In this document: piece after piece, positions 1 to 28,766 of the stretch | Layout of the letters: each line of letters starts with the position of its first letter | Position numbering within the stretch: the first letter of the stretch is position 1 | The notes under the pieces: model-generated | Seen by the model: the letters and a program-made list of their open reading frames with translations, nothing else | What the model was told of the DNA's origin: nothing | Database searches by the model: none | Assembly (NCBI GenBank): GCA_003194525.1 | Contig: NBIV01000057.1 | Coordinates: 1 to 64,000, forward strand | DNA: 64,000 bases | Reading direction: 5' to 3' | Source: Gracilariopsis chorda | Taxonomy: Eukaryota > Rhodophyta > Florideophyceae > Gracilariales > Gracilariaceae | Position numbers and translations under genes: made by a program

Positions 1-1342
1 AAGACACCCCGGTCTCCGGGAATTGAAACCGACAAACCCGGATTACCGGAAGCTTTTATCATACCGGTACTACCGGCTGAAGATTCGTCACTTGGACGTA
101 CGCCCCGTGGTACGGGAAAGGTGCGAGAATGCATTAAGCGAATGCAGCTCTCGCTCCGCAACCAGTATTTTACTGGAGAGGACCCAGTCCTAGTACTGGA
201 TTTCCTATCCCGCTTTGTAGCGGAGGCCGATATCCTCGGTATGAATGAGGGACAAGCCTATTTGGCTTTACCGTATTTTTCTTACGGGGAGTGGCGGAGG
301 ACCAATACACCTCTGTCAGAGATCTTCTCGCGCCTCCGAGGGAGGAGTTACTTGCTGGCCGGAGGCTGTGCAGTATCTTCTGCGCTCCTACGCCACCAAC
401 ACCGCTATTCAGCAGGCTATCCTCGCTTTGCGAGATACACGCCAGCGTGCTGGAGAGACCGAGACCGATTACTCGGTGCGCCTTAACAAGGCTTTCCACA
501 GATGTGGTAACGTATACCCCGCTGGGGAGCGCGCAGTACCATGTTCATTGATGGTCTTGACCGGCAATCCGGAGTTTAGTTACCCGTTATCGGGAGGACA
601 AGCGAAGGATCACCTACCTCGAGCTGGTCCAACACGCTCGAGCGGAAGGGGATGCACTTCGTGCAAGAACTCCGAACAATCGGTCTAAATCCGCCAAGGC
701 GTTGTTGCTGGAAAGCGAAGCTTCCTCTCTCCCGCTCACCGCGGATGGGAACCCTGGACAGGGATTTGATACCGTGCATTTAGCGCAGGGGATGGTGTGT
801 CGATACCCACCAGTGATTACCGTCAACGACGGAGATGACCCATGATACGGGAACAGAAGATCCCGTTCTATACGGTGGTAACAGTCGGGTTCAACCCAAC
901 GACTCCCGTTTTCAAACGGTCAATCCCGTTATCAACGGCCTGGATGGACTGACACCCGCCCTGCGGTTCGCTTCTCCGATACTCGGAATAATAATCCGCG
1001 TGTCGCGGTGCTGGCTCTCATTTGCCACCTGTGCTATGCCCATGGCCATACCTCTCCTCAGTGTATTTGTTCACTGAAGGATATGGCCAAGGTGGTGGCA
1101 AATTATGAGGCCCTCACTCCAGAGGAGAAACGTTCCGTCCGACGGCTTCCTACCTCCGTGCTAAAACGGACTTTTCCCACGCCCTACCACAGACCCCGCG
1201 TGCGCGGCAAGCTTCATACACCCGATTCGAGAGATCACGCAACCATCCGTTGCAACCCCCGCTTATGCGGATAGAAACCCCCGTCAACGGGATGAAGCAC
1301 TCGTTGTCGAGGAAACCAACCCACCGCTGAAGGCGGAAAACT
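1..1342 (+). pseudogene. gag: chromovirus gag (copy A), 3' part, frameshifted
   Basis: Capsid/nucleocapsid polyprotein of the retrotransposon, recognised by collinearity with the intact 724-aa gag of copy B. The frame beginning RECIKRMQLSLRNQYF (from 121) is lost near 280 through two extra T, shifts again near 322 where one G is missing, near 530 where two bases are added, and near 563 where one C is missing. The nucleocapsid zinc knuckle is still readable around 1023-1065 as CHLCYAHGHTSPQC, the C-x2-C-x4-H-x4-C form. The reading stops at a TAA near 1342, just before the pol frame opens. With at least four frame changes it cannot make full-length Gag. Confidence 0.85.
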
Positions 1343-1361
1343 AACTGAGGGAGTCTCCCCT

Positions 1362-4300
1362 TTGGGAGAGGCGTCCTCAAGAACGAGGCTGTTGGCGCCC
1401 GAGGCGTCCTCGCCTCGCTCCCCGGTGAAAGTCCTCTCGAGGAAAGACACCGCTGACGCGGACTCTGCGCACCTCGGTGTGTTGCGTCGCCCGTGGATAC
1501 GGAGTAAAAATCCCGGATTCCCGGTAGAGTCTTGGTCTTGGCCAAGCGCAATTATAAGGTCTATGCCGACCTTGGCCTTGACCCCCAGTTTATGGTGAGG
1601 TTTCTCACCGTCCTGGATACAGGTGCAGGCCCCAACTTCGTTGTGGAATCATTGTTACCCCCGCTTGTGCGGTCTCGTATCCGCTCTGACGCGGTCCCCG
1701 ACATTTCGGATGCGAATAACAACCCGTTACAAACGGTCGGCACAGTGGACCTCGTCGTGAGACTTGGTACCTCCGTGGTGAAGTTGGACTTCATCGTTTG
1801 CCGTTCATTGGCAGCACCAGTCATACTGGGATGTGATTACTGCGACAGATTTGTCGACGCAATCAGGCCCCGCCTCAGGCGTGTAGAACTTGACGACGGA
1901 TCGTCGGTTCCGATTGTTCGCCGCCCGCTAAAGCGGTCCTCTCGGAAACAAGTTCCGCTCCCTGCTGCGCAGGAACCACCGCCCGCGTCCCGCGAGTCCA
2001 CAAAGCTCCGCGTCGCTGCCTCGGTTTCTATACCAGCTGAGTCCCAAGTCTGGGTGCAGGTAAATTCCCGTCAACACGGTCTTCGGGTTATACAACCCCT
2101 CGCCTCGTTGTACGAGAAATCCCAGCTGGCGCTGGCTAATGGAATTGTCTCCATTTCCCCGGATGCCCCTTTCCGGATATTGGTTGCCAACCTTGGCAAA
2201 CACCCCCAGTATCTGGTCAAACACCAAGTAATTGGGAGTGTAACCCCCCATCCTATGGGAATGCTGCCAACAAAGATGACAGCCGCCGATGTACTCGGAG
2301 TTACCACCTCTTCTGAGGAGTTCGCCCCGCCGTCCGAAGACGTCAAGTCTAAGGAGGGGAGGAAACCGCTACTTCAGCGCCGAACATACCGAGTAACTCG
2401 GAATTGCGAACCACACCTGTTCCACAGGACAATGCTCCATCGAGCAATGACCGGATTGATCCGGAAAAAGCACTTGAAGCGCTGGACTTCAGCCACGTGC
2501 CAGAGTCGCACCGCGACAAACTCCGTACTATGTTACGGGAATCCACCACAATGTGGGATGGCTCGCTTGGCGAGATTAATACAACGGAACACCGGATCGA
2601 TTTAATCCCCGGTGCGCGACCGGTTGCACAACCCCCTTACAGGGCAGGTCCGAAAGCTCAGGAAGAGGAGCAGTCCCAAGTGGACAAGATGCTCCGCGCA
2701 GGTGTGATTGAGCCCGCTCAATCACCCTGGGCATCCCCAGTTGTATTGGCTTTAAAGGCCGACGGAACCTGGAGGTTCTGTGTCGACTACCGCCGGCTCA
2801 ATGCCGTGACTGTTAGGGACACGTACCCTATCCCTCGTATGGACGAGTGCATTGACTCCCTTGGAGACGCCACCGTGTTCACGGCCCTTGATGCCAATTG
2901 GGGATATTGGCAAGTACCTGTCAGACAGGAGGATCGCGACAAAACCGCATTCACCTGCCATGCAGGAACGTACCGCTTCAAGCGGATGCCATTTGGGTTG
3001 ACCAACGCCCCCGCCACCTTTCAGCGTGCAGTAGATATTCTATTCAACCGCTTTAAGTGGCGGAGTTGTCTGGTCTACCTTGATGATATCATCATCTTCT
3101 CCAACTCGTTGGACGACCATCTCACTCACGTCCGAGACGTGCTCACCGTACTCCGCGATGCCGGAATTACCCTCAAGTTGAGGAAATGCGAGTTTTTCAC
3201 AGATACTGTGAAGTATCTGGGTCACATTATCCGTCCTGGACGGTTAGCGATCGAGAAAGCTCGAGTCAAATCCCTCGTTGAGGCGAAAGAACCCCGTACT
3301 CAAACGGAACTGCGCTCCTTTCTGGGACTGGTCAACGTCTATCGACGGTTTTTCCCGAACTTTTCGGATACTGCAGCGCCCCTGAACGCGTTGTTGCGAA
3401 AGTGGAACCCCCCAAAACTGGGAATATTTACGCCCGAGCAATCGGAAGCCTTCAACTCCTTAAAGGAGGCTGTCACATCAGCACCAATCCTACATCTCCC
3501 AAAACTTGGGTTGCCATAATCCGTAGATACGGACTCGAGCGACTACCAAGTCGGGTGTGCTCTTTTTCAAACCACCCCCGAGGGGGAACGGCATCCAATT
3601 GGTTATTGGTCACGTTCGCTCAATGTTCATGAGCGGAACTACTCCGTATCGGAGAAAGAGTGCCTCGCCGTCGTATGGGCGATGACCACTCTGCGCCCCT
3701 ACCTTATGGGAATTCACTTCACCATGTACACGGATCATTCCTCATTGAGGTGGTTGATGAATATCTCCGACCCGTCGGGACGCCTCATGCGCTGGAGACT
3801 CCGCCTCGCGGAATATGACTTTCAAGTCATTTATAAAAAGGGTGCGCAGAACACCCAGGCCGACGCTTTATCGCGGTTACCCACAAGTGGGGAAGCACTC
3901 CCAACGGAGGATGATGAAGTCCCATGCTTCATGGCTATAGACCCGGATGATCCGGAACATGCCGTCGAGGCTAGGCCAGAAACCTGGGACGAGGATGCTG
4001 ATTTTGACGAACTACTCGCATCGCGAGATAAATCTGAGAACCCGTTACCGGGAAACTTTGTACCGGTATCACCGGAAGAAATGATCCGAGAACAATTCGG
4101 CGACCCATTCTGTACGAGAATTCGTGCCCGTATCAACGGTGGTGAAGATCTCCCTTTCGGGGTAAACGACAAAGGCTACCTCGTAAGAAAGGTGGAAGCC
4201 CGCCCACAGATTTTGGTACCACATTCCCTGCAATCGCGGGTGTTACATCTATCACACTACGCCCCCATTGGAGGTCACCCAGGTGGGAGGAAACTCTACC

Positions 4301-6921
4301 TAACCCTGCGAAGGGATTTCTATTGGCCCGCAATGGCGGTGGATTGCTACGCAACTGTGCGGTTTTGTAGCGAATGCGCGAAGAATCGCGTCAAACTCCG
4401 CAAAAATGCGAAGAAGATGAAACTATTCCCCGCAAGGGCGCCGCTCGAGTTTATTGCGATCGATATTCTCGGACCATTACTCACCACGAAACGGGGAAAC
4501 AAGTTTCTACTTGTCATTACCGACCGCTTTTCTAAGCTGGTACGGACTGTCCCTCTTCGGAGGATAACCGCTCTCACGGTGGCCCAGGCTCTGGTGACGC
4601 ACTGGATTTTTGTCTACGGTCCCCCTGTAGAGGTGCTCTCTGACAACGGGAAGCAGTTCGTGAACAAGTTCTTCCAGGATGTTTGTCGCATCCTGGATGT
4701 CAAGAACTTGTTCACGACTACCTACCACCCCCAGTGTAATGGGCAAGTTGAACGGTTTAACCGGACGTTACTCGCGGCGTTACGTTCCTACGTCGCTGAC
4801 CACCCACCGAATTGGGATCTCTACGCTGATGCGGTAACCTACGCGTACAATACGCAGGTACACCGGACTACCGGAGTTTCGCCATTCGAGTTAGTTCTAT
4901 CTAGAACACCCCCGCCTGTGGCGCTGGAACCCCAAGCTACCTTGGACAATTTCCCATCTGTGGGTATCTACCGGCAGCAATGGAAGCAATGGCTTTCCAA
5001 GCTGGTCCCCGCGGCGCGGAAGTCTATGGCACGGGCCCAAGCCGCTTACAAGCGGGATTTTGACGCTCGCTTGCGAGGAAAACCGTCCCCGATTCGGGCA
5101 AATAACTACGCCTTCATCAGGAAGGAATACTACAACCCGGAACGGGAGAAGCGTCACAAACTCTCGCCTGTGGCGGATGGACCCTTCAAGGTGATCTCTG
5201 TTAACACCGACACTGTCGTGGTAGAGATGGGGGACACGCACGAACGGATTTCCCGTGATCGTGTTGTCCTTGCCCCTCCTCCCTCGTCAGAGGTAGTCCT
5301 GGGTCCAGGCAACCCCGTTTCTACGGACTCCGCTACACGGGAACAATCCGGGAGTACTAGACCTACGGTACTACCACACCCCAGCCGGGGACTCTCAGAC
5401 CTACCGACTCTGTCGGACTCACCGGCTCAGCCGGGTAATTCGGGCCCCTCAGCGCCCGCCCCTACCACATCTGCCCCACTGGCGCGCATTTATACCCACC
5501 AGGCGGGTAATGTTATCCCTTATCCCGCCGCTCCGTCTAAGGAGGGGGAGGAGAACACTCGTTTTCGAGGAACGATATCACCGTCGCAACGGGAAACACA
5601 CCGTAACATACGGAACACTGACAGTGGAGCACGGAGTATGTCACGCGACACTAATCCCCCGTTCCCGGGCAGTGCTGTGCAACAGGAACCAGACGCGCAG
5701 GCCCCGCAAAAGCGGCAAATACATCGTTTGTCACGGGAAAACGAGAAGCCTCACTCCAAGACCGCAGCAGCGGAAAGGCAATCACCCGATGCCTCGAAGC
5801 CGCCGTTGGCGGAAGTCCCCGCGGAAGCGGTTCAATCAGGTCGATCAGACCCGCGCCCCGCGGAGAAGAGGCGCCCAGATACACCAGCGCCGCTGGGAAA
5901 TACCCACACCCCTCTTGGGGAAAAAGGCGGCCAAGCTGCAGTCGAAGCTTTAAGCCCTGGCTTGCAAGCAACGGAAACGCCTCCCGTCGTTGACGGAATC
6001 AAAGCCCCCGCTACGGGGAATAATTTGCGCCAACCCCCGCATCGCTGCGGCGAAGAACCGAGAAACTCGGGAATAACGCGCGCCATCGCACGCTCGAAAC
6101 CGGTCGTACCGGACGCTGTTCCTCATCACGGAGATGGTGCACTGCCCTCAGCGGCAATTCCCCTGAAAAGGGTGTCATCGGCACCTGCCCAGAACCCGCC
6201 AAAGGGGAATTTTGACCAAAATACCGGTGTACCGGAGTTAGCCCCAGGCAACCCGTCAGTAGCCGGGGACACCACGGCGTCGCCGGAACGTATGGTGCAG
6301 AGCGCTCGTGCGCCTGGCAGGGAGGCGGTTTGCCACCCAATCACCGTGTCGCACGGGACCCCCCAGGGGATTGTGGAAATGACGATCCCGCAGGAGCGGT
6401 CATCTTCCCGCAAACTCGCGGTTCGTGAGCTCAACCGCGAAGGCGGAGCCCAAGTCCCCCGCCGACTGGCGGTTCGCCCGGCCTACCGTGAAGACGGGAA
6501 CAACGACACCCCAATGGGGAATGACTTGCCGGGGAAAACCGTGACACCACACACCCTCTTGAGGGATATTTTCCGGCATGAGCAGCGGCCACTAGGACAG
6601 CGCACGGCAACGTCGGAGTTATCGCCGAACACCCTGCTAAGGGACATTATACCGCACAGCGGGCAGCCCTCGCAAGGGAGTACAACCACCACCCGGCACG
6701 GCCGGCAGGTCTACGAACGAGAGTTCGTAGTAGACCGACTTGTCGGACACACCTGGAACCAGGATGGTATTCTACAATACCGCGTCCGCTGGTACGGGTA
6801 CGACCCCAGTGGGGATACGTGGGAGCCAATTGAACACCTCCCACGGTCGCAGGTTCTGCGATACCACCGTCAGACGGGAACTGCAGCCCCAGCCACGCTG
6901 GTTAATGCCCAAGTTGGGTAA
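1362..6921 (+). pseudogene. pol: chromovirus pol polyprotein (copy A): PR-RT-RH-IN-chromodomain, broken
   Basis: Domains in order: retropepsin with FLTVLDTGAGPNFV (catalytic D codon at 1616-1618); reverse transcriptase from about 2650, with FGLTNAPATFQ and the YLDD catalytic box at 3076-3087; RNase H from about 3520; integrase with HHCC zinc finger (H-H near 4250, CSEC near 4366) and D,D-35-E core (AIDILGP near 4455, SDNGKQF near 4638, NGQVERFNR near 4738); a long Pro/Ser/Arg linker; a C-terminal chromodomain. Against copy B, one C is missing near 1511 and one G near 2356, and TAC has become TAA at 3517-3519, so translation falls into four pieces. From 3682 to 6921 the frame is open for 1079 codons, covering the rest of RNase H, integrase and chromodomain. 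The element cannot be autonomous as it stands. Confidence 0.93.
5281..6921 (+). other. integrase-chromodomain linker and chromodomain of copy A pol
   Basis: After the integrase there are about 470 residues rich in Pro, Ser, Arg and Glu with no recognisable fold, then a chromodomain at about 6706-6880 (REFVVDRLVGHTW, VRWYGYDPSGDTWEP). The aromatic and W-Y-G-Y / TWEP positions are those of chromovirus chromodomains, which bind modified histone tails and steer integration. The linker is much longer than I would expect between integrase and chromodomain. It differs between copies by in-frame length changes: copy B has roughly 45 more residues near the position equivalent to 5790. It is among the densest stretches of short hairpins in the element. 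Confidence 0.8.
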
Positions 6922-7112
6922 CGTTGCCGCGCGAGCGGAGAGCGAAAGGAAAGGATAACAAGGCAAAGTCCGTCGAAGACGGGGAACTCAACCGAGAAGC
7001 ACCGTTCTAAACGGGAAAGTTTATTCAGGGGAGCAGCTAGCTCCCCACAATACTACACTACACTAACTGGCATAGCCAGGGAAAGAAGAACCAGGAAACT
7101 GGACCAGAGGTT

Positions 7113-8900
7113 TCACTCACCCCCATCGTCCGGGGCGTAACCACCAGCGAGGCGGTAGGCCAACGCGTCCGCCATGGTGGTGACATCCCCCGATACCTCG
7201 GCAGCGCTAAGACCGGCACCCCGGAGGAAACGTGCGATGATTTCGTTTTCATTCGCCGTCACCCCGCTGGGGATTGAAGGTCCGGCACTTGCCGCCGAAG
7301 GGTCAGCAGCCGGCTCGGCCGGAGATGCCCCCTCTGGGAAAGCTTCCGCGCTAGCGCCGGTTTCCTCTACGTCCATATCCCCGGGTTCTTCCGGTTCGTT
7401 ATCGACCATTGGGTCATCCCCGCCGTATGCGCGGTAGTGGTCGTCGGAATCGACGTACCCCACCGGGTGGTCTTCCGGCACATGCCGGGGCGTATCGCGA
7501 AGCTCGCGCGCCTCCTCGGAGGAAATTTCCCGGAACTCCCAGGGGTCGAAGTAGATAAAATCCCCCGCAAGGGCGGTGTTTCTACCGAGTCCCGGACCAC
7601 CGGTGTTACCGCTACCGCCATCCAGACGACCGCTTTGCTCCAGCGGGACCTCACTCCAGCTAACGCTGTCGATGTACCCAAGTAATTGGAGGACCTCTTC
7701 ATTGTTGGCCTGGCCCCCAAGGGGGATGCGAAGATCCAGGTTTCGGATCGCTGCCCGCACACGCGGTTGAAGGAACCAGAGACGATACTGGTCGTACGCC
7801 TCGTTGAGGATATAAGCCGCAGTGCGGGCCGCCCACTCCGTAACCACTACGGACCACAACCCCGACCGGGGATCCTGCATGAGCAGCGAACCGAGGTACG
7901 TAAGTACCGGCGGGAGTTCTATGTAGCACCCCCGGCAGGCTTCATGGAAGCGCCACCACTCGGGGAGTGCTACATACCGACCTAGTCGGTGAGGCGGCGC
8001 AATCCGCTCTATCTCCACGTTCTGATACGGGATAAAATAACCGATTCGGGATCGCCAACGCCGCTCGTAGCGGATGAAGTTTTGGAGAAAGTTGGACCGG
8101 TATTGCCGGGGAAGGTACCTGAACTCCGCCCGAATAATCGGTCTCTCCCAGCAAAGGGCCTCTTGCCGCGCTGCGGGGAAATTCCTCCAAGCGAGGGTCT
8201 CGAGGCGGAACAGGTTCTCGCCGTACCCAATCTCCCCGCGAGTGCGGAAGTAGCTAACGTCGAAGCCAAACTCCGGTGGGACCGGTACATCGAATGGAGC
8301 CCGGCTCTGCCGTTGATACGCCATGCGCGTCAGCGCGGTCTGTGCCGCAGTGACGGTCTCGCCCGAGTTTCTTCGGAGGTGGTGACGTGGAATCGCAATC
8401 CGGTGACGCCAATCCCACGATGTGGTGACTGCTCTGTGCAGATCCCCCGGAAGGGTGTCCGAACCATCCGCATAAGCGGTGACCAATCCCTCATTGAGGA
8501 CGGCGACCAGGTGAAACCACGGGGCAAGGCGCAGGCGCGACGCGTGATTCCGATTCATCGGGTTGAGCCCCACCAGGGTGTTGTAAGTTGGCCAGTTGGA
8601 CACCGGAGTGGTTCCGGAGGACACCACCGAAGGTGGTAGTGCGAAGGGATGGTCGGCTGCCGCAGCCATATTCCCCGGTTGTACCGGATTTCGATCGCCC
8701 TGAGGCAGGGGAACTGACCGGAAACCGGTGGTGTATCGCCCGAGAAGTCTCGGCGGTTGGCTGTGGTTGTTGATATTGTTGTCGTCGTTCATTTTTCCCT
8801 TTTGGAGGGTGGCTGTTGTTGTCGTTTGTGTGCTTGGTGACTCTGGTGCAGAGGGATTTACCGGAGAACCGGAGACAAAGCACGCGCTTTTATCACCCAT
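7113..8900 (-). CDS. antisense ORF between pol and 3' LTR, 595 codons, function unknown
   Basis: A long open frame runs against the element, from ATG at 8900 to the stop at 7113; a second ATG lies near 8789. I recognise no family. The N-terminal 80 residues are polar (Gln/Asn/Thr-rich). The middle is rich in Trp, Tyr and Arg and looks folded, with many aromatic positions between residues 130 and 400. The last 130 residues are acidic and Ala/Pro/Glu-rich. It shares the hairpin signature of the rest of the element (for example CCCCC-aa-GGGGG at 7714-7725 and CCGGT-ggg-ACCGG at 8273-8285), so it is native rather than a recent capture. Copy B retains only its two ends. Antisense ORFs in this position are known in some plant Ty3/gypsy elements (Grande and Retand types). 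A fortuitous ORF is possible but unlikely at this length. Confidence 0.6.
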   Translation of the reverse strand: MGDKSACFVSGSPVNPSAPESPSTQTTTTATLQKGKMNDDNNINNHSQPPRLLGRYTTGFRSVPLPQGDRNPVQPGNMAAAADHPFALPPSVVSSGTTPVSNWPTYNTLVGLNPMNRNHASRLRLAPWFHLVAVLNEGLVTAYADGSDTLPGDLHRAVTTSWDWRHRIAIPRHHLRRNSGETVTAAQTALTRMAYQRQSRAPFDVPVPPEFGFDVSYFRTRGEIGYGENLFRLETLAWRNFPAARQEALCWERPIIRAEFRYLPRQYRSNFLQNFIRYERRWRSRIGYFIPYQNVEIERIAPPHRLGRYVALPEWWRFHEACRGCYIELPPVLTYLGSLLMQDPRSGLWSVVVTEWAARTAAYILNEAYDQYRLWFLQPRVRAAIRNLDLRIPLGGQANNEEVLQLLGYIDSVSWSEVPLEQSGRLDGGSGNTGGPGLGRNTALAGDFIYFDPWEFREISSEEARELRDTPRHVPEDHPVGYVDSDDHYRAYGGDDPMVDNEPEEPGDMDVEETGASAEAFPEGASPAEPAADPSAASAGPSIPSGVTANENEIIARFLRGAGLSAAEVSGDVTTMADALAYRLAGGYAPDDGGE

Positions 8901-8944
8901 TTTCGTCTGGGAATCCTCCGCGTCCGCGGTCGTTTTCCCGTCTT

Positions 8945-8956
8945 AAGGGGGGGATA
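8945..8956 (+). promoter_or_regulatory. polypurine tract, plus-strand primer of copy A
   Basis: A purine run with seven G residues lies directly before the 3' LTR, the standard position for the RNase H-resistant primer of second-strand synthesis. Copy B has the same tract, read as a C-run on the + strand, at about 37850-37862. Confidence 0.75.
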
Positions 8957-9763
8957 TGAAGTGCAACGCCCTCAGGGAGGGATTCTGGGTACTTGAACGC
9001 TTTCCCGATATTATCGGTTGTGTAGTGTGTATATGAACTACGCCCCACAATGGTGGGTATGGACACGTGGGACACGGTTTTGGGTCAATTGACGGTTGGC
9101 CACAGTAGTGGATGTTGCCACGGAATGTGGAGTATTTTAGTTAGTTTTATTTATTATTTTCACACCCATTTCTGGGAAGCTAGTACTTAGTGCGACGGCG
9201 CACTGCCGTCGCACCAGTAAACCTTCCCCAACAAGGGACCCCAACCTGGGGAATTGGCTCTGAGCTTTACCGCCTCCGCGTGTTCTCAACTCCTCCTTGG
9301 AGGGAAGCACCGTAGTGTACGGAAGTTCACCCCCTTGCACATCTAAAGGAGACCCATCATTGGGAGTACTAATTGTTCCAATCATATTGGTGTTTCGCCC
9401 TGTATAGGGAGTCCTGTCCACCGGCATTGCCGTATCTACTCGTCGCTCTCGCGACCCACTTCGTCCTTCCTCTTTCCCCTTTTTAGGGTAGCACCTCCCG
9501 CTATCCGCGGCCCTCGTGTGCGCATCCGCTCACACACCCCCACTTACGTGGAAACATACCTCTACTGAGGATCACACCCCGCTCACGCGGATACCGATTC
9601 TTCGCCTTCACCTCCCTGCGCGAGTCGCGACAGGTGTCCCTGGTCTTACAAACCGGCTTCGCCGTGACACCTCTGGAAGGGCTCTACCCAACTGGGTTCA
9701 CCTCGTGAGAGGAAGATCCCGGACGTCTTTCGGTGTTTTTCCCCTTTGAGGCATTGCACCACA
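8957..9763 (+). repeat. 3' LTR of chromovirus copy A (807 bp)
   Basis: Begins TGAAGTGCAACGCC and ends GGCATTGCACCACA, matching the ends of both copy-B LTRs and the solo LTR at 10136. It contains many perfect short hairpins, including an 8-bp stem GCGACGGC/GCCGTCGC near 9191-9213. Stems at 9310-9322, 9378-9390, 9559-9570 and 9579-9590 are kept in other copies with different loops. Confidence 0.93.
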
Positions 9764-11198
9764 GATTTCAATCCTCTTCAAAAAAATAATTGACCTTCGC
9801 GCAAGTAGTACACCCCAGTGATTGTTGTCTAGATTAAGAGGTGTGACAACCATATCAATTTCATCATCACCACAGAAAAGGCGCTTTTGAAAAAGTTCCA
9901 GAAAAAGATCGAGATGCTCTTTTCTATAGCGCTCATCACCTTTGCGACCATCATAGAACTTTAGGGCTATTCCTGACAAGTAAGCTTTAATAACACATCT
10001 GCAAGGTACCACACCTTCGTTTGGCTCTAGTTCTGTAATACCAGATGTGATTAGAACATTGCACATATAGCTTTTAGGTCTACAGCTCACAATAAACACG
10101 TTTGGATCTGCAGCGTTCCTCTCATTGATCATAAGTGAAGTGCAACGCCTTCAGGGAGGGATTCTGGGTACTTGAACGCTTTCCCGATATTATCGGTTGT
10201 GTAGTGTGTATATGAACTACGCCCCCTAATGGTGGATATGGACACGTGGGACACTGTTTTGGGTCGATTGGCGGTTGCCACAGTAGTGGATGTTGCCACG
10301 AACTGTGGAGTATTCTAGTTAATTTTATTTATTATTTTCACACCCATTTCTGGGAAGCTAGTACTTAGTGCGACGGCGCACTGCCGTCGCACTAATAAAA
10401 CTTCCCCAACAAGGGACCCCAACCTGAAGAATTGGCTCTAGTTGTTACCGCTTGCGCGCGTGCTCTACTCCTCTTTGGAGGGAAACGCCGTGAACCACGG
10501 GACATCTAACCCCCTTGCACATCTAAAGGGACCCATCACTGGGAGTCATATTATTCCAATTGCATTGGTGTTTCGCCTTGTATAGGGATATTTTTACCGG
10601 CATCACCGTTCGCCCCGTCGCTCTCACGACTCACATCGTCCTATCTTCCTCCTCTTCGCCCTTCCTTTTTCCCCTTTTTGAGGTAGCACCTCCCGCTATC
10701 CGTGGCTCTCGTGTGCGCATCCGCTCACACACCCCCACTTACGTGGAAACCTACCTCTGGCGAGGACGCATTCCCGCTCTCGCGGATACCGATTCTTGTC
10801 CTAAACCCTCTTGCGCTAGTCGCGAAGGGTGGCCTCGGTCTCAAAAACGGGCTCGGCCGTGCCACCCCTACAAAGGCACTACCCGACTGGGTTCAACTCT
10901 ACGGAGGAAAGATCCCGAACGTCTTTCGATGTTTCTCTCCTTTGGGGCGTTGCACCAAAATAAGGTCTAATGCATGATTTCTTGCCGTAACAAATCTACA
11001 ATATTGGGTTACATCATGAACATTAAAGATAAGCCCATACCAATCCGCAAGATGACAATAAAACCAATCTACTGTTTTCCGTTTCTCATCATTCAATAGA
11101 TCGTAGTTTTCATGCGAATCAAGAAATTTTGTGACACAGTTTTCGTTTACATGCTTGAGAAAAAGCATTGCCCCAATTTTCAGATAGATGGTTCCCAA
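9764..11198 (-). pseudogene. ULP1/SENP-like (peptidase C48) gene, interrupted twice
   Basis: Two - strand pieces, 11198-10965 and 10135-9764, join in one frame once the solo LTR and one copy of its target duplication are removed, giving about 200 codons. The piece nearer copy A reads DMVVTPLNLDNNHWGVLLA; the NHW (codons within 9815-9826) carries the catalytic His expected in C48 SUMO/ubiquitin-like proteases. The catalytic Asp and Cys should lie further 3', beyond the copy-A insertion and outside the window. The 5' end is unclear: an in-frame stop sits just upstream of 11198. ULP1-like proteases occur both as host desumoylases and as passengers of DNA transposons; nothing here decides between them. 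Confidence 0.6.
10136..10959 (+). mobile_element. solo LTR of the chromovirus family (824 bp) with 5-bp target duplication
   Basis: Homologous end to end with the copy A and B LTRs, starting TGAAGTGCAACG. It is flanked by a perfect 5-bp direct repeat ataag at 10131-10135 and 10960-10964, the Ty3/gypsy target-duplication size. No internal region is present, so it is a product of LTR-LTR recombination. It interrupts the ULP1-like frame exactly, and removing it restores that frame. Confidence 0.93.
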
Positions 11199-15000: not shown

Positions 15001-18000
15001 ACGCGGAGAGATTAAGTAGAGGAGAGGATGGTGAAGGTGACGTGGAGAGGGCGCTGTTGCTATATGAGGCAGCGGTAGGGGAGTTTGGAAACGAGGAGGC
15101 GCTGGAGAAGTGTGTGGACCTGATACTACGCAGCAGTCGGGTATCGGATACGCGGGCAGTTGAGGTGGTAGAGATGTTTGTCGGGAACATTCTTCCGAAT
15201 GGAGAGCTGAGTGAGAGGAGAATGAGTTCGGGTACACTGGAAGCAGTGAGAGGTGTTGTGTTCAAGACTTGCAAGAAGCTGGTGTTCAGATGTGAAGATA
15301 GTATGGAAGAGAGTGGACTATCGGACTTACTCTCACTGATTGCTTTGTTTGGAACATGGGAAGCGAGGAAGGATGCCCGAAATCTGATGGATGTGATGTT
15401 CTGTTATTCTGCGACGTTCGAAGCAGCTGTTGAGTATACTACCATGTACAAGATCATTCGGCATGTGCAGAACACAAACAGTCTCGAGGCGGGTGCCGTG
15501 AGTGGCGAAATGGGAGAGCGGGATGTGAATGCACAGAACTCAAAATACGAGGTAAGATTTGTTGAAAGAGCTTTTCAGGTGACCGGGCATATGAGGTGCC
15601 TGAACGTACTTGGAAACCTACTACGCAGGGGAACGGAGGGAGTTCCTGCTGATGCAGCGCGCGCCAAGGAGTTGTACGAACGAGCGATTGCTGATGGTGG
15701 GGATGTTGACGCTATGTACAACCTGGGGGTTCTGCTGGTGAACGGGGCTGATGGAGTAGCAGCCGACGCAGCGCGCGCCAAGGAGTTGTACGAACGAGCG
15801 ATTGCTGATGGTGGGCATGTTGGCGCTATGTACAATTTGGGTGTTCTGCTGGTGAACGGGGCTGATGGAGTAGCAGCCGACGCAGCGCGCGCCAAGGAGT
15901 TGTACGAACGAGCGATTGCTGATGGTGGGCATGTTGGCGCTATGTTCAACCTGGGTCTTCTGCTGGTGAACGGGGCTGATGGAGTAGCAGCCGACGCAGC
16001 GCGCGCCAAGGAGTTGTACGAACGAGCGATTGCTGATGGTGGGCATGTTAGCGCTATGGTGAACCTGGGTGTTCTGCTGGTGAACGGGGCTGATGGAGTA
16101 GCAGCCGACGCAGCGCGCGCCAAGGAGTTGTACGAACGAGCGATTGCTGATGGTGGGCATGTTGACGCTATGTACAACCTGGGGGTTCTGCTGGAAGACG
16201 GGGCTGATGGAGTAGCAGCCGACGCAGCGCGCGCCAAGGAGTTGTACGAACGAGCGATTGCTGATGGTGGGGATGTTGGCGCTATGTACAACCTGGGGGT
16301 TCTGCTGGAAGACGGGGCTGATGGAGTAGCAGCCGACGCAGCGCGCGCCAAGGAGTTGTACGAACGAGCGATTGCTGATGGTGGGCATGTTGACGCTATG
16401 TACAACCTGGGGGTTCTGCTGGAAGACGGGGCTGATGGAGTAGCAGCCGACGCAGCGCGCGCCAAGGAGTTGTACGAACGAGCGATTGCTGATGGTGGGC
16501 ATGTTGACGCTATGTACAACCTGGGGGTTCTGCTGGAAGACGGGGCTGATGGAGTAGCAGCCGACGCAGCGCGCGCCAAGGAGTTGTACGAACGAGCGAT
16601 TGCTGATGGTGGGCATGTTGATGTTATGTACAACCTGGGGATTCTGCTGGAAGACGGGGCTGATGGAGTAGCAGCCGACGCAGCGCGCGCCAAGGAGTTG
16701 TACGAACGAGCGATTGCTGATGGTGGGCATGTTGGCGCTATGTACAATTTGGGTGTTCTGCTGGTGAAAGGGGCTGATGGAGTAGCAGCCGACGCAGCGC
16801 GCGCCAAGGAGTTGTACGAACGAGCGATTGCTGATGGTGGGCATGTTGGCGCTATGTACAATTTGGGTGTTCTGCTGGTGAACGGGGCTGATGGAGTAGC
16901 AGCCGACGCAGCGCGCGCCAAGGAGTTGTACGAACGAGCGATTGCTGATGGTGGGGATGTTGGCGCTATGTACAACCTGGGGGTTCTGCTGGAAGACGGG
17001 GCTGATGGAGTAGCAGCCGACGCAGCGCGCGCCAAGGAGTTGTACGAACGAGCGATTGCTGATGGTGGGCATGTTGGCGCTATGTACAACCTGGGGGTTC
17101 TGCTGGAAGACGGGGCTGATGGAGTAGCAGCCGACGCAGCGCGCGCCAAGGAGTTGTACGAACGAGCGATTGCTGATGGTGGGGATGTTGGCGCTATGTA
17201 CAACCTGGGGGTTCTGCTGGAAGACGGGGCTGATGGAGTAGCAGCCGACGCAGCGCGCGCCAAGGAGTTGTACGAACGAGCGATTGCTGATGGTGGGCAT
17301 GTTGACGCTATGTACAACCTGGGGGTTCTGCTGGAAGACGGGGCTGATGGAGTAGCAGCCGACGCAGCGCGCGCCAAGGAGTTGTACGAACGAGCGATTG
17401 CTGATGGTGGGCATGTTGATGTTATGTACAACCTGGGGGTTCTGCTGGAAGACGGGGCTGATGGAGTAGCAGCCGACGCAGCGCGCGCCAAGGAGTTGTA
17501 CGAACGAGCGATTGCTGATGGTGGGCATGTTGGCGCTATGTACAATTTGGGTGTTCTGCTGGTGAAAGGGGCTGATGGAGTAGCAGCCGACGCAGCGCGC
17601 GCCAAGGAGTTGTACGAACGAGCGATTGCTGATGGTGGGCATGTTGGCGCTATGTACAATTTGGGTGTTCTGCTGGTGAACGGGGCTGATGGAGTAGCAG
17701 CCGACGCAGCGCGCGCCAAGGAGTTGTACGAACGAGCGATTGCTGATGGTGGGGATGTTGGCGTTATGTACAACCTGGGGGTTCTGCTGGAAGACGGGGC
17801 TGATGGAGTAGCAGCCGACGCAGCGCGCGCCAAGGAGTTGTACGAACGAGCGATTGCTGATGGTGGGCATGTTGGCGCTATGTACAACCTGGGTCTTCTG
17901 CTGGTGAACGGGGCTGATGGAGTACTGGCTGATGCCGCTCGCGCCAAGTGTCTGTTTGAGGGAGCAATCGCTACATCAGAGGACGTGGACGCTATGGTTG

Positions 18001-18215
18001 CACTTGGTGAACTGCTGGTGGACGGTGCAGAGGACGTTGAGGGGGACGCTGCAGCTGCACAAGAGCTCTTTGAGCGTGCAACAGAACGGAATGGAAGCGC
18101 ACTTGCGACGCTGCGTCTTGGAGAACTGCTACTGCGAGGAGCGGAAGGTGTGCCACAGGATGTGGAGCGTGGACGTGTCTTGGTGGAGCAAGCTCTGCAG
18201 GGCACTGGACATTAG
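12045..18215 (+). CDS. giant membrane-anchored Sel1-like-repeat protein 1 (2056 aa)
   Basis: Single 6.2-kb intronless frame. Residues 1-260 hold about five hydrophobic segments (near 6-29, 47-67, 76-95, 193-217 and 236-255), followed by a Lys/Arg/Gly-rich stretch (about 257-285) that should face the cytosol by the positive-inside rule. Acidic low-complexity segments follow near 425-465 and 738-752. A long unrecognised region leads to about 23 Sel1-like repeats of 38 residues from about residue 1185 to the end (consensus NLGVLL..GADGVAADAARA then KELYERAIADGG). Such alpha/alpha repeats form superhelical scaffolds for protein complexes, for example in ER-associated degradation; the actual partner is unknown. 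The start is the ATG shared with copy 3, after identical 5' sequence. Most repeats are almost identical in DNA, so the array has been recently amplified. Confidence 0.85.
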   Translation: MELAALSNVFYIVVLAYIAAFMPWTAFIAKDFISDKWKSIRHTRQAGYINLLFAIVPACYILFYCRVQFAALDWKEGFAAVAALVFALLHGVRSGWGLWQLYLFRSWCADSIEALEAMGVTYRYYDENRRGVVDKHCKSAWKKADEMLVNNRVVDNQILNGEAVCHIEYGNNIRVQAEVPYYMEWRNAVELVPRYLVFLLKMMFCFGAIVLEGIRFSMGLGTSGKVRQVPNQPVEVWMNWVIVFAAQGLGEWLSGFKVGAKGRRGRKGGKGRKGVREWEKRRMDFASEVLATCIMQLWPEVEGGIDGKKGMEPMFWSGWEEGSEMHRGRMVKEELLKYAMRSGEGLPFGVAHEEVLKAKERTGGEVGYNDYGRQIVSKVGSLDVRKEFWPEIGKLDVEMLEWLTILLYMGRRSVKLREGRASSSEDDSKEDERSESGGKADRLSDSEDESVEDWVDQASRNLSEQLSRPLGREAKRESDEDGSGVERGVVLPSFPFSTRWKRARGRNRHVLKVGEMVDAWLSMIGGDGLRFVLELNEKWSTACRGVRYENREKREEEEGDPNECIDIRNVGGDRDQKDEGSLRNVHKEVEKLRLQFQFGDEGCRCEWGVNFGMTFMGYKMESVRSRLAAWAHQNDEKREEGKCSSAFRRGLGELEGGVQSMSRPFVLSKALSLALGAGRVESNLKSRRLHVRLLWELQEHLEGCIQGDEECEGERVAQHGPESFEAIALCVLSFPSLRVDVEEEEEDEESGMRRTREWCGIPVRWLSEDGCESMEEEQGWIGRRMIVFEPVCGPQRCQVKVRLDDGDSDGRRNAVVSICFGEEREFVWEWWREAFTGRLEGMREWQSEHYMETSLSVIRSYGAMDSEFERYETVTKEEFEVWKGWRPFRAEICMFEMQSSGLLKESAKIHHEPSREVDLGYVTTELGFRKHERRVVTYEEAEMRVLFHGMSLIRESIVEERKTGENDVGAGGEAGMVSTPDDLVWNAERLSRGEDGEGDVERALLLYEAAVGEFGNEEALEKCVDLILRSSRVSDTRAVEVVEMFVGNILPNGELSERRMSSGTLEAVRGVVFKTCKKLVFRCEDSMEESGLSDLLSLIALFGTWEARKDARNLMDVMFCYSATFEAAVEYTTMYKIIRHVQNTNSLEAGAVSGEMGERDVNAQNSKYEVRFVERAFQVTGHMRCLNVLGNLLRRGTEGVPADAARAKELYERAIADGGDVDAMYNLGVLLVNGADGVAADAARAKELYERAIADGGHVGAMYNLGVLLVNGADGVAADAARAKELYERAIADGGHVGAMFNLGLLLVNGADGVAADAARAKELYERAIADGGHVSAMVNLGVLLVNGADGVAADAARAKELYERAIADGGHVDAMYNLGVLLEDGADGVAADAARAKELYERAIADGGDVGAMYNLGVLLEDGADGVAADAARAKELYERAIADGGHVDAMYNLGVLLEDGADGVAADAARAKELYERAIADGGHVDAMYNLGVLLEDGADGVAADAARAKELYERAIADGGHVDVMYNLGILLEDGADGVAADAARAKELYERAIADGGHVGAMYNLGVLLVKGADGVAADAARAKELYERAIADGGHVGAMYNLGVLLVNGADGVAADAARAKELYERAIADGGDVGAMYNLGVLLEDGADGVAADAARAKELYERAIADGGHVGAMYNLGVLLEDGADGVAADAARAKELYERAIADGGDVGAMYNLGVLLEDGADGVAADAARAKELYERAIADGGHVDAMYNLGVLLEDGADGVAADAARAKELYERAIADGGHVDVMYNLGVLLEDGADGVAADAARAKELYERAIADGGHVGAMYNLGVLLVKGADGVAADAARAKELYERAIADGGHVGAMYNLGVLLVNGADGVAADAARAKELYERAIADGGDVGVMYNLGVLLEDGADGVAADAARAKELYERAIADGGHVGAMYNLGLLLVNGADGVLADAARAKCLFEGAIATSEDVDAMVALGELLVDGAEDVEGDAAAAQELFERATERNGSALATLRLGELLLRGAEGVPQDVERGRVLVEQALQGTGH
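15597..18197 (+). repeat. 114-bp tandem array coding 38-aa Sel1-like repeats
   Basis: About 21 units of 114 bp plus two diverged C-terminal units. Units differ mainly at two hinges: LLVN/LLED/LLVK, and GGH/GGD followed by VGAM, VDAM or VDVM. The order of variants in units 8-13 recurs in units 15-20. For example the rare VDVM codons near 16620 recur near 17418, exactly 798 bp (7 x 114) later, which shows a block duplication inside the array. Confidence 0.93.
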
Positions 18216-20945: not shown

Positions 20946-21473
20946 CATGCTCTAACGTGTACAAGATATAGCACCAACCACAAGAAATCCACTACTACTT
21001 GACTCTGCACTGGAAAAACAAGCCAGAGCCCTGCCTGTAAAGCAAATTAATTATTCACGTCTCAAGAAACACAACTTGTTAAGAGCATTCATACTCAATT
21101 GATCTTTACTCTCACAACAGGCCCTTCCAACAAAATCAGATTTTCACGGCGCAAACAAAACTAATGAAGAAAACAGCTTCAATTGCAATCTCAAACCATG
21201 ATCTGGCAAGCGTTTTCCCACAAGCTACAATTCCAGCACACAGTTCTAGTGACCCAACAGAAAATCCTAGAATCAATAGAATTAATAGTTAAGAGTGCAT
21301 ATGTGAGTATAATTTATGTCTAATAACACAACCAAACAAGAACCAACTGTTCTGTTTTCCTCTACATAATACAACTTTGTGCAACAATCAGAAGCAAGAT
21401 ACATCACTTCCGTATACCCAAAAAAAGCTGTCTTACTATTTAAAAGTATACGTTAAATATGCCAAAAGGGTAG
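20946..21473. other. AT-rich intergenic, nothing recognised
   Basis: No frame, repeat or RNA gene seen. Confidence 0.4.
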
Positions 21474-21688
21474 TGAGACAAGTGATTGGGATGTGGAGGC
21501 TTTATTTTCTGACTGGTTGATGAAGTTCCATTTCTATGCATCTTTCTTTGCTCCGAACTTTTATAACGCTCATTCTACGCAAACTTTCTGTGGTACAAGA
21601 CCAATTAGAACCGTCTACATCCGTATGTGCCCAATTTGAAGTCAAAGCTCTTCCAATTTGAACCTTTTCCATCAGTACTGTTGCAATA
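21474..21688 (-). repeat. 3' LTR of gypsy element 2
   Basis: On the - strand it ends TTCTCTCA-like and begins near TTGCAACAGTACTG. It aligns along its full length with 26800-27014, with many point differences, so the insertion is old. Confidence 0.85.
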
Positions 21689-22076
21689 ATGTTCTCTGTG
21701 GGTATGGAAGACCTTGTCAATGCAAACGTGTAAGAAGAGTATTGTCCACTACATAATCTCGAATGATTTTTTAAGCGTCCCATCAGCACCCACAAAATCT
21801 CTCGTGGGCTGCCATTGTGTATCATGCGTATTAGAGTTTTTTCCAATAGCGTGAGCCAAAGATATTTAATCTCTCTCTTACAATGAGCCAGAATACGATC
21901 CATATTGTATAGAGTGCTTCAAAGTGATCCGGGAACTGGGGCAGGAGTACTTTGCGTAGGCTGTGCAATGTTCAGTGGCTACGAGCGATGTGGTTTCGTA
22001 TGAGAAACATGTAAGTCTGGATACGTTCCGATATTGAATCGAAAATTCACCCGCACAGCATTCTTTCCTACCTGCT

Positions 22077-25000: not shown

Positions 25001-25892
25001 TTGATACGTTTCAAGGCTCTGTAATCGACAACACCACGATCCTCGCCTGGTTTTTTCACAAAGAAAAGTGGAGCCCTATAGGGGGAGCGACTAGGACAAA
25101 TCTTACCTGACTGTAGTAGCTTGTCAACTTATTCTCGAATGGCCAATAATTCAGCATCAAAAAGCTGATAGGAGGCACGATGAGGAGGCTTGGCAGCGGG
25201 CAATAGCTCGATGGTCTGATCGACGTGGCTAGAATGGGGAAGGCCGGGGGTATTTGTACCTGAAAAACATCCTCACATTCACAAATTTTGGCACACAGAT
25301 CTGCGTCATCTTTGTCCAATAGTTCGGCTTTTGGATCTGTTTTGGCCGGTACAGCACCCCGAAGTTTCGAGCTGCTCACTGTAGTCACCCGAACGAATTC
25401 TGTGCCCGCCTTTGGGGAACGGAGGACGCAACGAAACTACTTTACACCCATGGACCAGACGTGGCGAGTACCTTGACGAGGCACTTGTTGTGCTAATAAC
25501 TCAAATCCATCCACGATTACTGTACGCGCCTGATAATCTGCTTTTGCGTTACAGTCTACATGCCATGGCATACCCAAAAGGACATCGTATCGGGCATCGG
25601 CCACAATCCAGTCCGTGGTATACGAGTGGTTTCCAATGCGAAGTGTCCCATTAGCAATCATTCCCGTAGCAATATCACGGAAGTTTTGCTTGGATTGAGA
25701 CACATCCATTAAGATCGGACGGAATGCAAACTCAGCTCTATGCGCTTCAGCAAACTCTCTCGAAATCACATTAGAGGTACATCTATTATCTTTGAGTATT
25801 CGTGTGGGTTGGTCATTAAAGATCCCTGGCAACATCACTAAGGGAACACATCGAATACTCTGCGAACTCTGCTTCTCATAGTTAGGTGACAC
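22077..25892 (-). pseudogene. pol: pol of gypsy element 2: PR-RT-RH-IN fragments
   Basis: Protease-like piece at 25892-25437 (DNRCTSNVISREFA in place of the usual D-S/T-G, then YDVLLGMPWH). RT pieces at 25388-25056 (finger region, shifted) and 24831-24592 (ASFQSLTNRVLHD and the LYIDDILFYS catalytic box). RT thumb and RNase H at 24031-23448 (KKCSFMASETEFLGLKVG, FFGLVQFFLRFIPHFS, LHIDASQLAVGA). Integrase zinc finger at 23026-22805 (SCDGCGICPLQK), core at 22818-22555 (SDRDPRFISSFW) and C-terminal part at 22445-22077 (AEFAYNSTVSEDIG, SPFEIDLGWKP). Pieces alternate frames throughout, so it is dead. Confidence 0.85.
24011..24629. other. probable insertion inside the RT of gypsy element 2
   Basis: RT similarity stops after LRKHFLHV and resumes at LPKKCSFM, with about 600 bases of unrelated, GC-richer sequence between. 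The 5-mer ctaca flanks it at 24006-24010 and 24630-24634, a possible target duplication, but the inserted ends are not TG/CA, so boundaries are uncertain. It could be a solo LTR or another short element. Confidence 0.35.
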
Positions 25893-26047
25893 GTTATGAC
25901 AAAAAGCTCCTTCCCATGTGCACTTATTATTTTCAAAAGGACGCTTTAGTTTTCCGAACTATCAAAACTATCGTCATCATCCGCTGCAGCCAGCACAGTT
26001 TGAGCAATCGATACATTTGCATTTCGACGTGCCTCTGCGCGATGCTT

Positions 26048-26767: not shown

Positions 26768-26799
26768 TGCATCGATGCTTACCAGTGCAACAACGGAAG

Positions 26800-27014
26800 T
26801 GAGAGAAGTGACTGGGATGTGGAGGCTTTATTCTCTGACTGGTCGATGGAGTTCCATCTCTATGCATCTTTCTTTGCTCCTGATTTTTATACCGCTCATT
26901 CTGCGCAAACGTTCTCGGGTACAAGACCAATTAGAACCGTCTACATTCGTATTTGACCGATTTGAAGTCACAGCTCTTCCAATTTGAACCTTTTCTATCA
27001 GTACTGTTGCAACA
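26800..27014 (-). repeat. 5' LTR of gypsy element 2
   Basis: Begins TGTTGCAACAGTACTG and ends CACTTCTCTCA on the - strand. The gag ATG (26767) lies only about 33 bases after it. Confidence 0.85.
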
Positions 27015-28460: not shown

Positions 28461-28766
28461 GGAAGCGGAAAATACGTAAATCGGGGTTAACATACCACTG
28501 AAAACACTCACATCAGCTGCTTGGGAAAAAGTGTGGTTTTGTTGTCCCACGCAACAATTTACGGAGAATAGGGACTGTACCCAGCTTTCCTCGCGTCCGT
28601 CGTTGGCTACTTGATAAGCGTCACTTTCTGCAGGTTGATGAATCAGTCCTGATCGTTGTTTTTCAACTACCTGCCGAAATCTAGCCTCTCAGATGCCCAG
28701 AGGTAGTTGTGGGAGTGGTGAGTATGGACAGAGAGGTCACAAGGGATCCTTCGAACTTGCCTAGAG

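Follow-up and report, generated by a model that had tools for sequence, protein, structure and literature searches.

Two copies of a Ty3/gypsy chromovirus in a 64,000-nucleotide stretch of Gracilariopsis chorda DNA (contig NBIV01000057.1, positions 1 to 64,000; hereafter the window) carry short perfect hairpins in large excess over shuffled sequence. We demonstrate that this excess is independent of codon use, that the hairpins obey a 3-nt loop threshold, have an outer clamp and keep a preferred nearest-neighbour spacing, and that a similar density occurs in one relative. With a probability that we put at about one half, the whole transcribed sequence of the chromovirus has been selected for folding into a chain of mini-hairpins, each self-contained.

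Results

The element is a Ty3/gypsy chromovirus, as it has the gypsy domain order (in copy B pol: RVT_1, RT_RNaseH_2/RT_RNaseH, Integrase_H2C2, rve, Chromo), a chromodomain and flanking LTRs. The two LTRs of copy B are 99.2% identical over 825 bp (blastn), and copy A aligns to copy B in blastn at 96.5% over 1-5789 and at 91.8% over 5787-7096. The features of the window used below are:

1-8956, forward strand: internal part of copy A, a Ty3/gypsy chromovirus, hairpin-rich throughout; its 5' LTR lies beyond the window
1532-2605, 2404-3519 and 3682-6921, forward strand: ORFs into which the pol frame of copy A is broken (ORF list)
2404-3519, forward strand: reverse-transcriptase (RT) ORF of copy A (PF00078, E 1.7e-37)
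2704-2725, forward strand: 10-bp stem GTGATTGAGC-cc-GCTCAATCAC within the RT ORF of copy A
3682-6921, forward strand: copy A ORF with the RNase H end, integrase (IN) and chromodomain (PF17917, PF17921, PF00665, PF00385)
7097-8864, no strand assigned: insert in copy A, absent from copy B (gap in the A/B blastn)
7113-8900, reverse strand: antisense ORF of copy A, mostly within the insert 7097-8864
8957-9763, forward strand: 3' LTR of copy A (blastn)
10136-10957, forward strand: another LTR copy, with 84% identity to that of copy A
37025-46921, reverse strand: copy B, a complete element with LTRs at 37025-37849 and 46097-46921
38106-43508, reverse strand: copy B pol ORF, 1800 aa, with RT, RNase H, integrase and chromodomain (profile matches)
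43817-45991, reverse strand: copy B gag-like ORF, 724 aa, homologous to ORF1 of the related locus L006

The gag-like ORF of copy B shares 34% identity with ORF1 of L006 over 613 aligned positions (E 6e-90), and both contain a CX2CX4HX4C stretch, which in copy B we take to be zinc-knuckle-like. The antisense ORF of copy A has homologues in G. chorda and Gracilaria domingensis. The GC content of the element is higher than that of much of the window.

Against 20 dinucleotide shuffles per region, copy A (1-9763) contains 228 perfect short inverted repeats (2.82x, z 14.5) and copy B (37025-46924), to which an earlier note made from the letters alone had extended the pattern, contains 216 (2.90x, z 18.5). 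The densest 2-kb scan window relative to shuffles was 2001-4000 (ratio 4.79). All nine hairpins quoted in that note lie where it placed them, although one of them, the TGATTGAG stem at 2705, is really the longer 10-bp stem at 2704-2725. Its guess that chance would give 3-4 stems in 2286-2778 agrees with the 3.4 +/- 1.9 found in 200 dinucleotide shuffles; the actual count there is 14 perfect stems of 5 bp or longer (loops 0-8). Coding and LTR DNA both show the pattern, as had been claimed: the antisense-ORF region of copy A (7113-8900) gave a ratio of 2.17 (z 4.6), the 3' LTR of copy A 2.37 (z 3.9; 13 hairpins versus 3.7 expected) and the next LTR copy (10133-10909 scanned) 1.65 (z 1.1; 6 versus 3.4), while the copy B LTRs have 9 and 10 hairpins versus 3.7 and 3.6 expected. 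The pattern was said to be absent from the Sel1-type genes and also from the other gypsy element, a decayed remnant elsewhere in the window, and in dinucleotide shuffles the remnant indeed had no hairpin excess and the genes were near chance (non-repeat part of the first, ratio 1.48, z 1.9; the second, 58500-63083, ratio 1.14, z 0.8). Two stretches of tandem repeats in these genes gave ratios of 0.32 and 0.13. Density was at chance in 21000-37000 (0.97), and three other flanks gave 1.17-1.32 (z 1.1-2.0).

Codon bias, as the earlier note had argued, does not produce the hairpins. Counting stems of at least 5 bp with loops of 1-6 nt and using 100 synonymous-codon shuffles per ORF, we found 104 hairpins versus 30.8 in shuffles (maximum 47) in copy B pol and 55 versus 14.6 (maximum 28) in its gag-like ORF. 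In copy A the counts were 28 versus 6.5 (maximum 14) in the RT ORF, 55 versus 17 (maximum 26) in the IN-chromo ORF, 27 versus 6 (maximum 13) in ORF 1532-2605 and 30 versus 11.2 (maximum 22) in the antisense ORF. The two Sel1-type genes showed no such excess in the same shuffles (15 versus 10.5, z 1.5; 18 versus 15.6, z 0.6). Counts in the element thus lay beyond the range of both dinucleotide and codon-preserving shuffles, the comparison that the earlier note had proposed. Hairpins in coding DNA are largely written by synonymous codon choice, which suggests that RNA shape matters besides the proteins.

The hairpins have the consensus form CC-NN(N)-loop-(N)NN-GG, mostly with stems of 4-5 bp and loops of 3-4 nt. 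Copy A contains 207 CC-initiated stems of at least 4 bp versus 26 expected, and such stems have a preferred nearest-neighbour spacing of about 21 nt. Beyond the nearest neighbour, a 21-nt lattice was compared with permuted gaps, and the fraction was 0.0005 in copy B and 0.185, not significant, in copy A. Within CC..GG footprints of 10-14 nt, inner bases pair at chance when the remaining loop would be 0-2 nt (0.20-0.25; shuffled 0.23-0.27) and at 0.36-0.54 when it is 3-8 nt. Pairing above chance only where at least 3 nt remain in the loop points to a steric rule of a folding strand. The clamp, this threshold and the spacing are additions to what the earlier note had described. No loop sequence dominates among the hairpins, whose loops are varied. 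Linkers contain more A than T on the sense strand of the element (p 5e-5 in copy A, 2e-7 in copy B), also in the non-coding DNA of copy B (p 0.026); the asymmetry was absent from the copy A insert (p 0.78) and from L006. Near-perfect stems have an excess of A-A and T-T mismatches, which from the mismatch positions we read as a reflection of A-rich flanks and T-rich loops.

The proteins are not distorted at hairpin codons. In the most conserved columns these codons agree with the family consensus in 97.6% of cases versus 94.4% for the rest, and the 10-bp stem at 2704-2725 encodes, in the RT frame, VIEPAQS, a part of that consensus.

In 350-nt fragments of copy B the mean folding-energy difference was 11.3%, with 26 of 28 fragments above 0; two controls from the window gave -0.6% and 0.1% (in the 21-37 kb control, every third fragment was folded). 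In both copies, perfect stems of 5 bp or longer that close loops of 3-8 nt occur at 3.0x the expected number. Against reading the structure in RNA, the antisense strand of copy B folds almost as strongly (9.1%, 27 of 28 fragments), that of L006 is more structured than the sense strand at 30 and 60 nt, and 5-bp stems with one wobble show no G-U excess in either copy (0.84x in copy A, 1.02x in copy B). In the ssRNA phages MS2, Qbeta, PP7 and AP205 one-wobble 5-bp stems are raised 1.4-2.1x (z 1.6-5.5), and in MS2 the A-C mismatch is raised even more than the wobble, at 1.6x. phiX174, the sole ssDNA genome examined, had no hairpin excess (22 versus 34.5).

Between copies A and B, 144 of 185 hairpins (78%) are common to both, versus 64 +/- 3.5% in 200 simulations (maximum 73%). 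Divergence at stem sites is 3.0% versus 4.7% simulated (minimum 3.45%), and loops diverge by 6.0%. For stem constraint, third positions gave p 0.034, and fourfold-degenerate sites by themselves showed none that was significant (4.7% versus 6.0-7.7%, p 0.40). As the copies are homologous, their agreement is not independent evidence. The 41 unshared hairpins, of which 28 are private to copy A and 13 to copy B though copy A is the broken copy, differ by one substitution in 36 cases, by two in 4 and by four in 1; the one-base differences include 7 changes to sense G-U and 14 to A-C. Two hairpins illustrate the changes:

5851-5863, forward strand: hairpin CCGCGcccCGCGG in copy A and CCGCAcccTGCGG in copy B, in which both sides of one pair differ
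9310-9322, forward strand: LTR hairpin CCGTAgtgTACGG, whose counterpart in the LTR at 10488-10500 is CCGTGaacCACGG and in both copy B LTRs the mismatched CCGTAaacCACGG

A scan of genome contigs gave 21 related loci (L001-L021), all within bacterial or archaeal genome records, mostly MAGs, and likely to be eukaryotic contamination; two scans of viral contigs found no relatives. Relatives of roughly 60% identity were met as protein sequences. Whole-locus z exceeded 3 in three of the 21 for stems of at least 5 bp (L001, L004, L006) and in five for stems of at least 6 bp (L001, L003, L004, L006, L014). Within the region matched, L006 is clearly ahead (3.0x, z 5.2), followed by L014 (1.9x, z 2.6) and by L004 in 6-bp stems (2.5x, z 3.1). 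At about 50% protein identity L006 has a hairpin density similar to that of copies A and B, yet lacks the CC/GG clamp. Hairpin positions differ between copy B and this one relative although the density recurs: over 423 aligned codons the overlap is 21 codons versus 24 +/- 6 by shifting. L004 and L003 have longer stems and broad loops, so structure of a weaker kind may extend further through the group.

The whole-locus excess of L001 lies largely in a GC-rich repeat outside its matched region, to which the analyses of folding energy and of pairing by loop length, among others, were confined. There we found no hairpin excess (29 versus 24), no pairing step by loop length (10-23 cases per loop length) and a folding-energy difference of 5.3%. 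In an RT tree of about 131 residues with several long branches, comprising copies A and B, 18 of the 21 loci (without L013, L018 and L021) and 27 of 120 listed relatives from the 7845 proteins that passed the search, L001 falls in the same 31-row clade (support 95/97), but on a long branch. The trait is thus not needed by every member of the clade.

Discussion

The selected fold would consist mostly of Watson-Crick stems of 4-5 bp with loops of 3-4 nt, an outer CC/GG clamp and A-rich linkers, spaced by about 21 nt. The selected molecule would be the plus-strand genomic RNA, and we hold it slightly better than even that RNA is the level of action. Besides the missing wobble pairs and the folding of the antisense strand, this reading has against it the few changes to G-U among the one-base differences, the lack of significant constraint at fourfold sites, the linker asymmetry missing from the insert and from L006, and the absence of the hairpins from the matched region of L001. 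Selection may maintain hairpin density and not particular hairpins. Among the roles listed in the earlier note a structural one fits best, given the loop threshold, the undistorted residues and the conservation of stems, and template switching is less likely, given the 36 of 41 single substitutions. The array might condense the RNA so that it can be loaded into Gag particles, shield it from small RNAs and from enzymes that read single strands, or do both; any single job, whether packaging, shielding or another, is doubtful. In a bolder version, which we consider unlikely, the clamp-defined mini-hairpin at steps of about 21 nt would be a structural code over the whole element (gag, pol, the captured reverse-strand gene and the LTRs), written synonymously and read by Gag as a distributed signal for packaging or coat assembly, with other clamps in relatives.

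A mutational origin without benefit is also unlikely. A growing cDNA would fold back, copy itself and perfect near-palindromes (quasipalindrome correction), and such a process fits the strictly Watson-Crick stems of both copies, the very short loops and the presence of hairpins in coding and non-coding DNA; it would also reduce stem divergence, and single-base correction resembles point mutation. However, a single substitution in 36 of the 41 unshared hairpins looks like point-mutation turnover and not like templated tracts, residues at hairpin codons have not been pushed off the family consensus, the clamp and the spacing are not obviously produced by mutation, and the window's gypsy remnant has only chance levels of hairpins. 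Alternatively, the hairpins could work at the DNA level, as folds of single-stranded cDNA or as cruciforms of the double-stranded element, for example in minus-strand protection or chromatin marking. The lack of wobble pairing, the nearly equal folding of both strands, a spacing of about two DNA turns and the tri- and tetraloops, which suit DNA hairpins, speak for this idea. We nevertheless judge it improbable, because linkers are A-rich on the sense strand, including the non-coding DNA of copy B, phiX174 has no excess, and pairs that leave 2-nt loops, which are possible in DNA hairpins, occur at chance.

RNA structure kept specifically as a means of hiding from small-RNA silencing would account for dense local stems and for a preferred spacing near small-RNA length, and there is evidence, not entirely consistent, for an escape of structured genomes from control by siRNA or miRNA (PMC3950689). 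This narrower explanation seems quite improbable, as the window's other gypsy element, the decayed remnant, shows no excess of hairpins and the closeness of the spacing to 21 nt may be coincidence. That the hairpins simply follow from base composition, from codon bias or from repeats, as the higher GC of the element might have suggested, has a negligible probability: codon bias and base composition were refuted by the dinucleotide and synonymous-codon shuffles, and the loop threshold also stands against them.

Selection of the chromovirus for a string of mini-hairpins has parallels in known systems. Small RNA viruses have dispersed packaging signals, many degenerate stem-loops across the genome. 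The G. chorda element likewise has many degenerate stem-loops spread over it, but its loops are varied and show no recognised motif. In the ssRNA phages perfect stems of at least 5 bp are in excess by 2.9-3.2x, as in copies A and B, and pairing rises in a broadly similar way at loops of 3-4 nt, with the exception of Qbeta (0.60 of 15 at loop 0). The phages differ in having longer stems (6-bp stems 4-6x versus 2.4-2.6x in the element), G-U pairs, a pairing peak at loops of 4-6 nt in three of the four, and, as measured in MS2 and Qbeta, an overall folding that is far stronger (about 30%). Ty3/gypsy chromoviruses share with the element the set of RT, RNase H, IN and chromodomain and a gag-like ORF with one zinc-knuckle-like stretch. 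By SHAPE, the genomic RNA of yeast Ty3 has a well-folded core and individual cis elements, and a uniform array of mini-hairpins is not described in the available text of that study (PMC11381356).

As far as the available text of two papers goes, GORS genomes resemble the element in that local stem-loops follow one another by the hundred through coding sequence (PMC7642675, PMC3950689). Their folding-energy differences (7.5-10.7% in HCV, 12.5% in HPgV; PMC7642675, in part) are close to the roughly 11% found here, and the whole of copy B, at 11.3%, exceeds the GORS threshold of 3% in the accessible part of PMC3950689. In the same excerpts, positions are poorly conserved between relatives, as here for copy B and L006 alone, and paired sites are less variable; in the element they may be so too, with 3.0% divergence over all stem sites versus 4.7% simulated, p 0.034 at third positions and p 0.40 at fourfold sites. 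GORS, however, is found in RNA virus genomes with a persistence phenotype, whereas the element is an integrating LTR retrotransposon. Its stems are mostly 4-5 bp, without wobble pairs and with a CC/GG clamp and preferred spacing, while predicted GORS duplexes are mostly longer than 8 bp and never longer than 11 (PMC3950689, in the portion available). Since neither copy has a wobble excess, we regard the element as working like GORS without filing it as a member; this use of G-U pairs as a criterion is our own, calibrated on the ssRNA phages and not taken from the GORS papers.

RNA viruses already provide examples of genome-wide local structure. Among the matches listed, judged by title and abstract in a search that left subscription journals and bioRxiv mostly outside, none described a comparable hairpin array in retrotransposons. 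An endogenous LTR retrotransposon that has the short-hairpin density of ssRNA phages, together with a fixed clamp and preferred spacing, would extend such selection to mobile elements. It would also offer a non-pathogenic system for studying whether genome-wide structure serves packaging, stability or escape from silencing.

Several other explanations were set aside. A double-stranded DNA palindrome bound by a dimeric protein would presumably be blind to the complementarity of inner bases and to the 3-nt loop threshold. Conserved individual RNA elements are contradicted by the hairpin positions, which differ between copy B and L006, and specific loop motifs by the lack of a dominant loop sequence. 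A neutral equilibrium of creation and decay was rejected as transition-type stems with one mismatch show no clear excess; the exception is A-C at 6 bp, at 1.42x in copy A (z 2.3) versus 0.84x in copy B.

Results

Nine hairpins quoted in the earlier note from a chromovirus pol sequence are all present at their places, and the hairpin excess that it had claimed for both copies of this element was borne out against dinucleotide and synonymous shuffles alike. The features concerned are the following.

Chromovirus copies and associated features
37025-46921, minus strand: copy B, a complete chromovirus with two LTRs, a gag-like ORF and a pol ORF
43817-45991, minus strand: gag-like ORF of copy B
1-9763, plus strand: copy A, a chromovirus extending beyond the window edge, pol frame broken
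7097-8864: insert in copy A without an equivalent in copy B, carrying an antisense ORF
7113-8900, minus strand: the antisense ORF (595 aa), mostly inside the insert
10136-10957: additional LTR

The LTRs of copy B (825 bp) are 99.2% identical, and its single pol ORF of 1800 aa contains RT, RNase H, integrase and chromodomain. Named gag matches are from Agarophyton chilense. The antisense ORF gave no Pfam match; its homologues are in Gracilariopsis chorda (50% over 98%) and Gracilaria domingensis (47% over 74%). These matches, all to transposon-linked proteins, suggest a red algal host within or close to Gracilariaceae.

Copy A contains 228 perfect stems of at least 5 bp (loops of 8 nt or less), 2.8 times dinucleotide shuffles (z 14.5), and copy B 216 (2.9 times, z 18.5); by the same kind of shuffle the ratio is 0.97 in the 21-37 kb region and 1.1-1.5 (z below 2) in two Sel1-type gene stretches. 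About 26% of copy A lies within hairpins (stem plus loop, loops 1-6), versus 7% in one shuffle. When protein and codon counts were preserved in 100 synonymous shuffles, all six element ORFs tested exceeded the shuffle maximum, and the two Sel1-type stretches showed no excess. The hairpins are written by synonymous codon choice.

Enrichment is highest for 3-4 nt loops and disappears beyond about 8. CC opens, and GG hence closes, about half of the stems (99/196 in A, 98/193 in B). CC-initiated stems of at least 4 bp number 207 versus 26 expected in A and 209 versus 24 in B; for exactly 5 bp the counts are 83 versus 4.7 and 85 versus 4.8. The CC-to-GG distance has a peak at 10-11 nt that is echoed at 31-33; the CC-to-CC distance peaks at 21-24. 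Hairpin centres lie 17-25 nt apart more often than random placement predicts (count reached in a fraction 0.02 of simulations for A and 0.0015 for B) and 27-36 nt apart less often (21 and 19 pairs versus about 34). A period of 20.5-20.75 nt fits best; of the two copies, only B shows significant longer-range order.

The pattern behaves like folding. Within CC..GG frames of 10-14 nt, inner pairs closing loops of 3-8 nt are complementary in 36-54% of cases, and those closing loops of 0, 1 or 2 nt only at the chance rate. For any 4-bp outer stem, inner pairing rises most at 3-4 nt loops in A, B and L006, a chromovirus-like locus found in a bacterial or archaeal record. Of four ssRNA phages (MS2, Qbeta, PP7, AP205), three have their strongest rise at 4-6 nt; the profile of AP205 is flatter, and Qbeta gives a high value at loop 0 as well (15 cases). 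Below 3 nt, the L006 signal (0.31-0.38) is not as clean as that of A and B, no clear step was found in the related locus L001, and the window control showed no rise with loop length. Composition and a DNA-binding palindrome were rejected as causes, since neither would sense a 3-nt minimum loop.

In each of the four conservation classes, residues of hairpin codons match the family consensus no less often than the remaining residues do (97.6 vs 94.4, 81.5 vs 79.6, 65.1 vs 59.6 and 35.2 vs 28.4%); VIEPAQS, the peptide encoded by the 10-bp stem at 2704, is part of that consensus. Copies A and B share 144 of 185 hairpins (78%), versus 64 +/- 3.5% (maximum 73%) in 200 simulations that scattered the same substitutions, ignoring codon and CpG context. 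Divergence is 3.0% at stem sites, 6.0% in loops and 4.9% elsewhere. Third codon positions change more slowly in stems (4.0% vs 6.5-7.1%, p 0.034), but not significantly so at fourfold sites alone (p 0.40), and the two base-pair replacements, one in pol and one in an LTR, are anecdotal. Conservation is thus supported, though modest. In the aligned region, broken copy A has 28 private hairpins and intact copy B 13.

Of 21 related loci found in bacterial or archaeal genome records, L006 (pol identity 50-54%, gag homologous) has 57 hairpins versus 21 expected (z 8.5), mainly with loops of 1 and 3, and both its ORFs exceed all 100 synonymous shuffles (33 vs 15 and 22 vs 7.8); it shows neither the CC..GG clamp nor linker asymmetry. 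L003, L004 and L014 have a weaker excess, made up of longer stems (at least 6 bp; z 3.2-6.5 over the whole locus), whose loops in L003 and L004 vary broadly in length. L001, likewise placed in the clade but on a long branch, shows no excess in its matched region. The trait thus recurs without being universal, and the clamp was observed in the family of A and B alone.

Discussion

We favour selection on the hairpins at the RNA level, with a probability of about 0.55. It is supported by linkers that are A-rich on the sense strand in the element taken overall and in the non-coding DNA of copy B, by a sense-strand folding-energy difference of 11.3%, and by a 5-bp stem excess equal to that of the four ssRNA phages. 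Weighing against it are the almost equal antisense folding (9.1%), the lack of linker asymmetry in the insert and in L006, and G-U pairs, which the phages use and the element does not; wobble pairs may be unaffordable in stems this short. Templated mutation as the source of the hairpins we consider unlikely, although single-base correction would escape a criterion of multi-base change. Structure acting at the DNA level appears more doubtful still.

Under RNA-level selection, a role can be proposed. Retrotransposon RNA must stay as RNA, enter Gag particles and be copied. Folded into many small, independent hairpins, such RNA would be compact, contain no long duplex and be concealed over much of its length from factors that read single strands; reading by Gag or mere protection may each be the role. 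The closest known system is GORS, the genome-wide local RNA structure of a class of RNA viruses, and 11.3% falls within the published values for such viruses (PMC7642675). The element differs in lacking wobble pairing, a criterion of our own, and we therefore describe it as working like GORS and do not file it as a member.

Other features of the window

A 10-bp stem, GTGCGACGGC-gcact-GCCGTCGCAC, lies at 9190-9214 in the copy A LTR and recurs in one copy B LTR; the other has one mismatch, and in the LTR at 10136-10957 the stem is 13 bp long. This stem could be a functional element in its own right. At 21000-37000 (minus), the region without hairpin excess, a gypsy-type RT is matched in two different frames, so the element is probably decayed. 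A fragment at 47898-48449 (minus) matches the adenylation and OB domains of NAD-dependent DNA ligase, unexpected in a eukaryotic window. Tandem repeats of 114 nt, belonging to Sel1-type genes, lie at 15575-18205 and 52332-53613; over these repeats long ORFs are open on both strands, and hairpins are rarer than chance.
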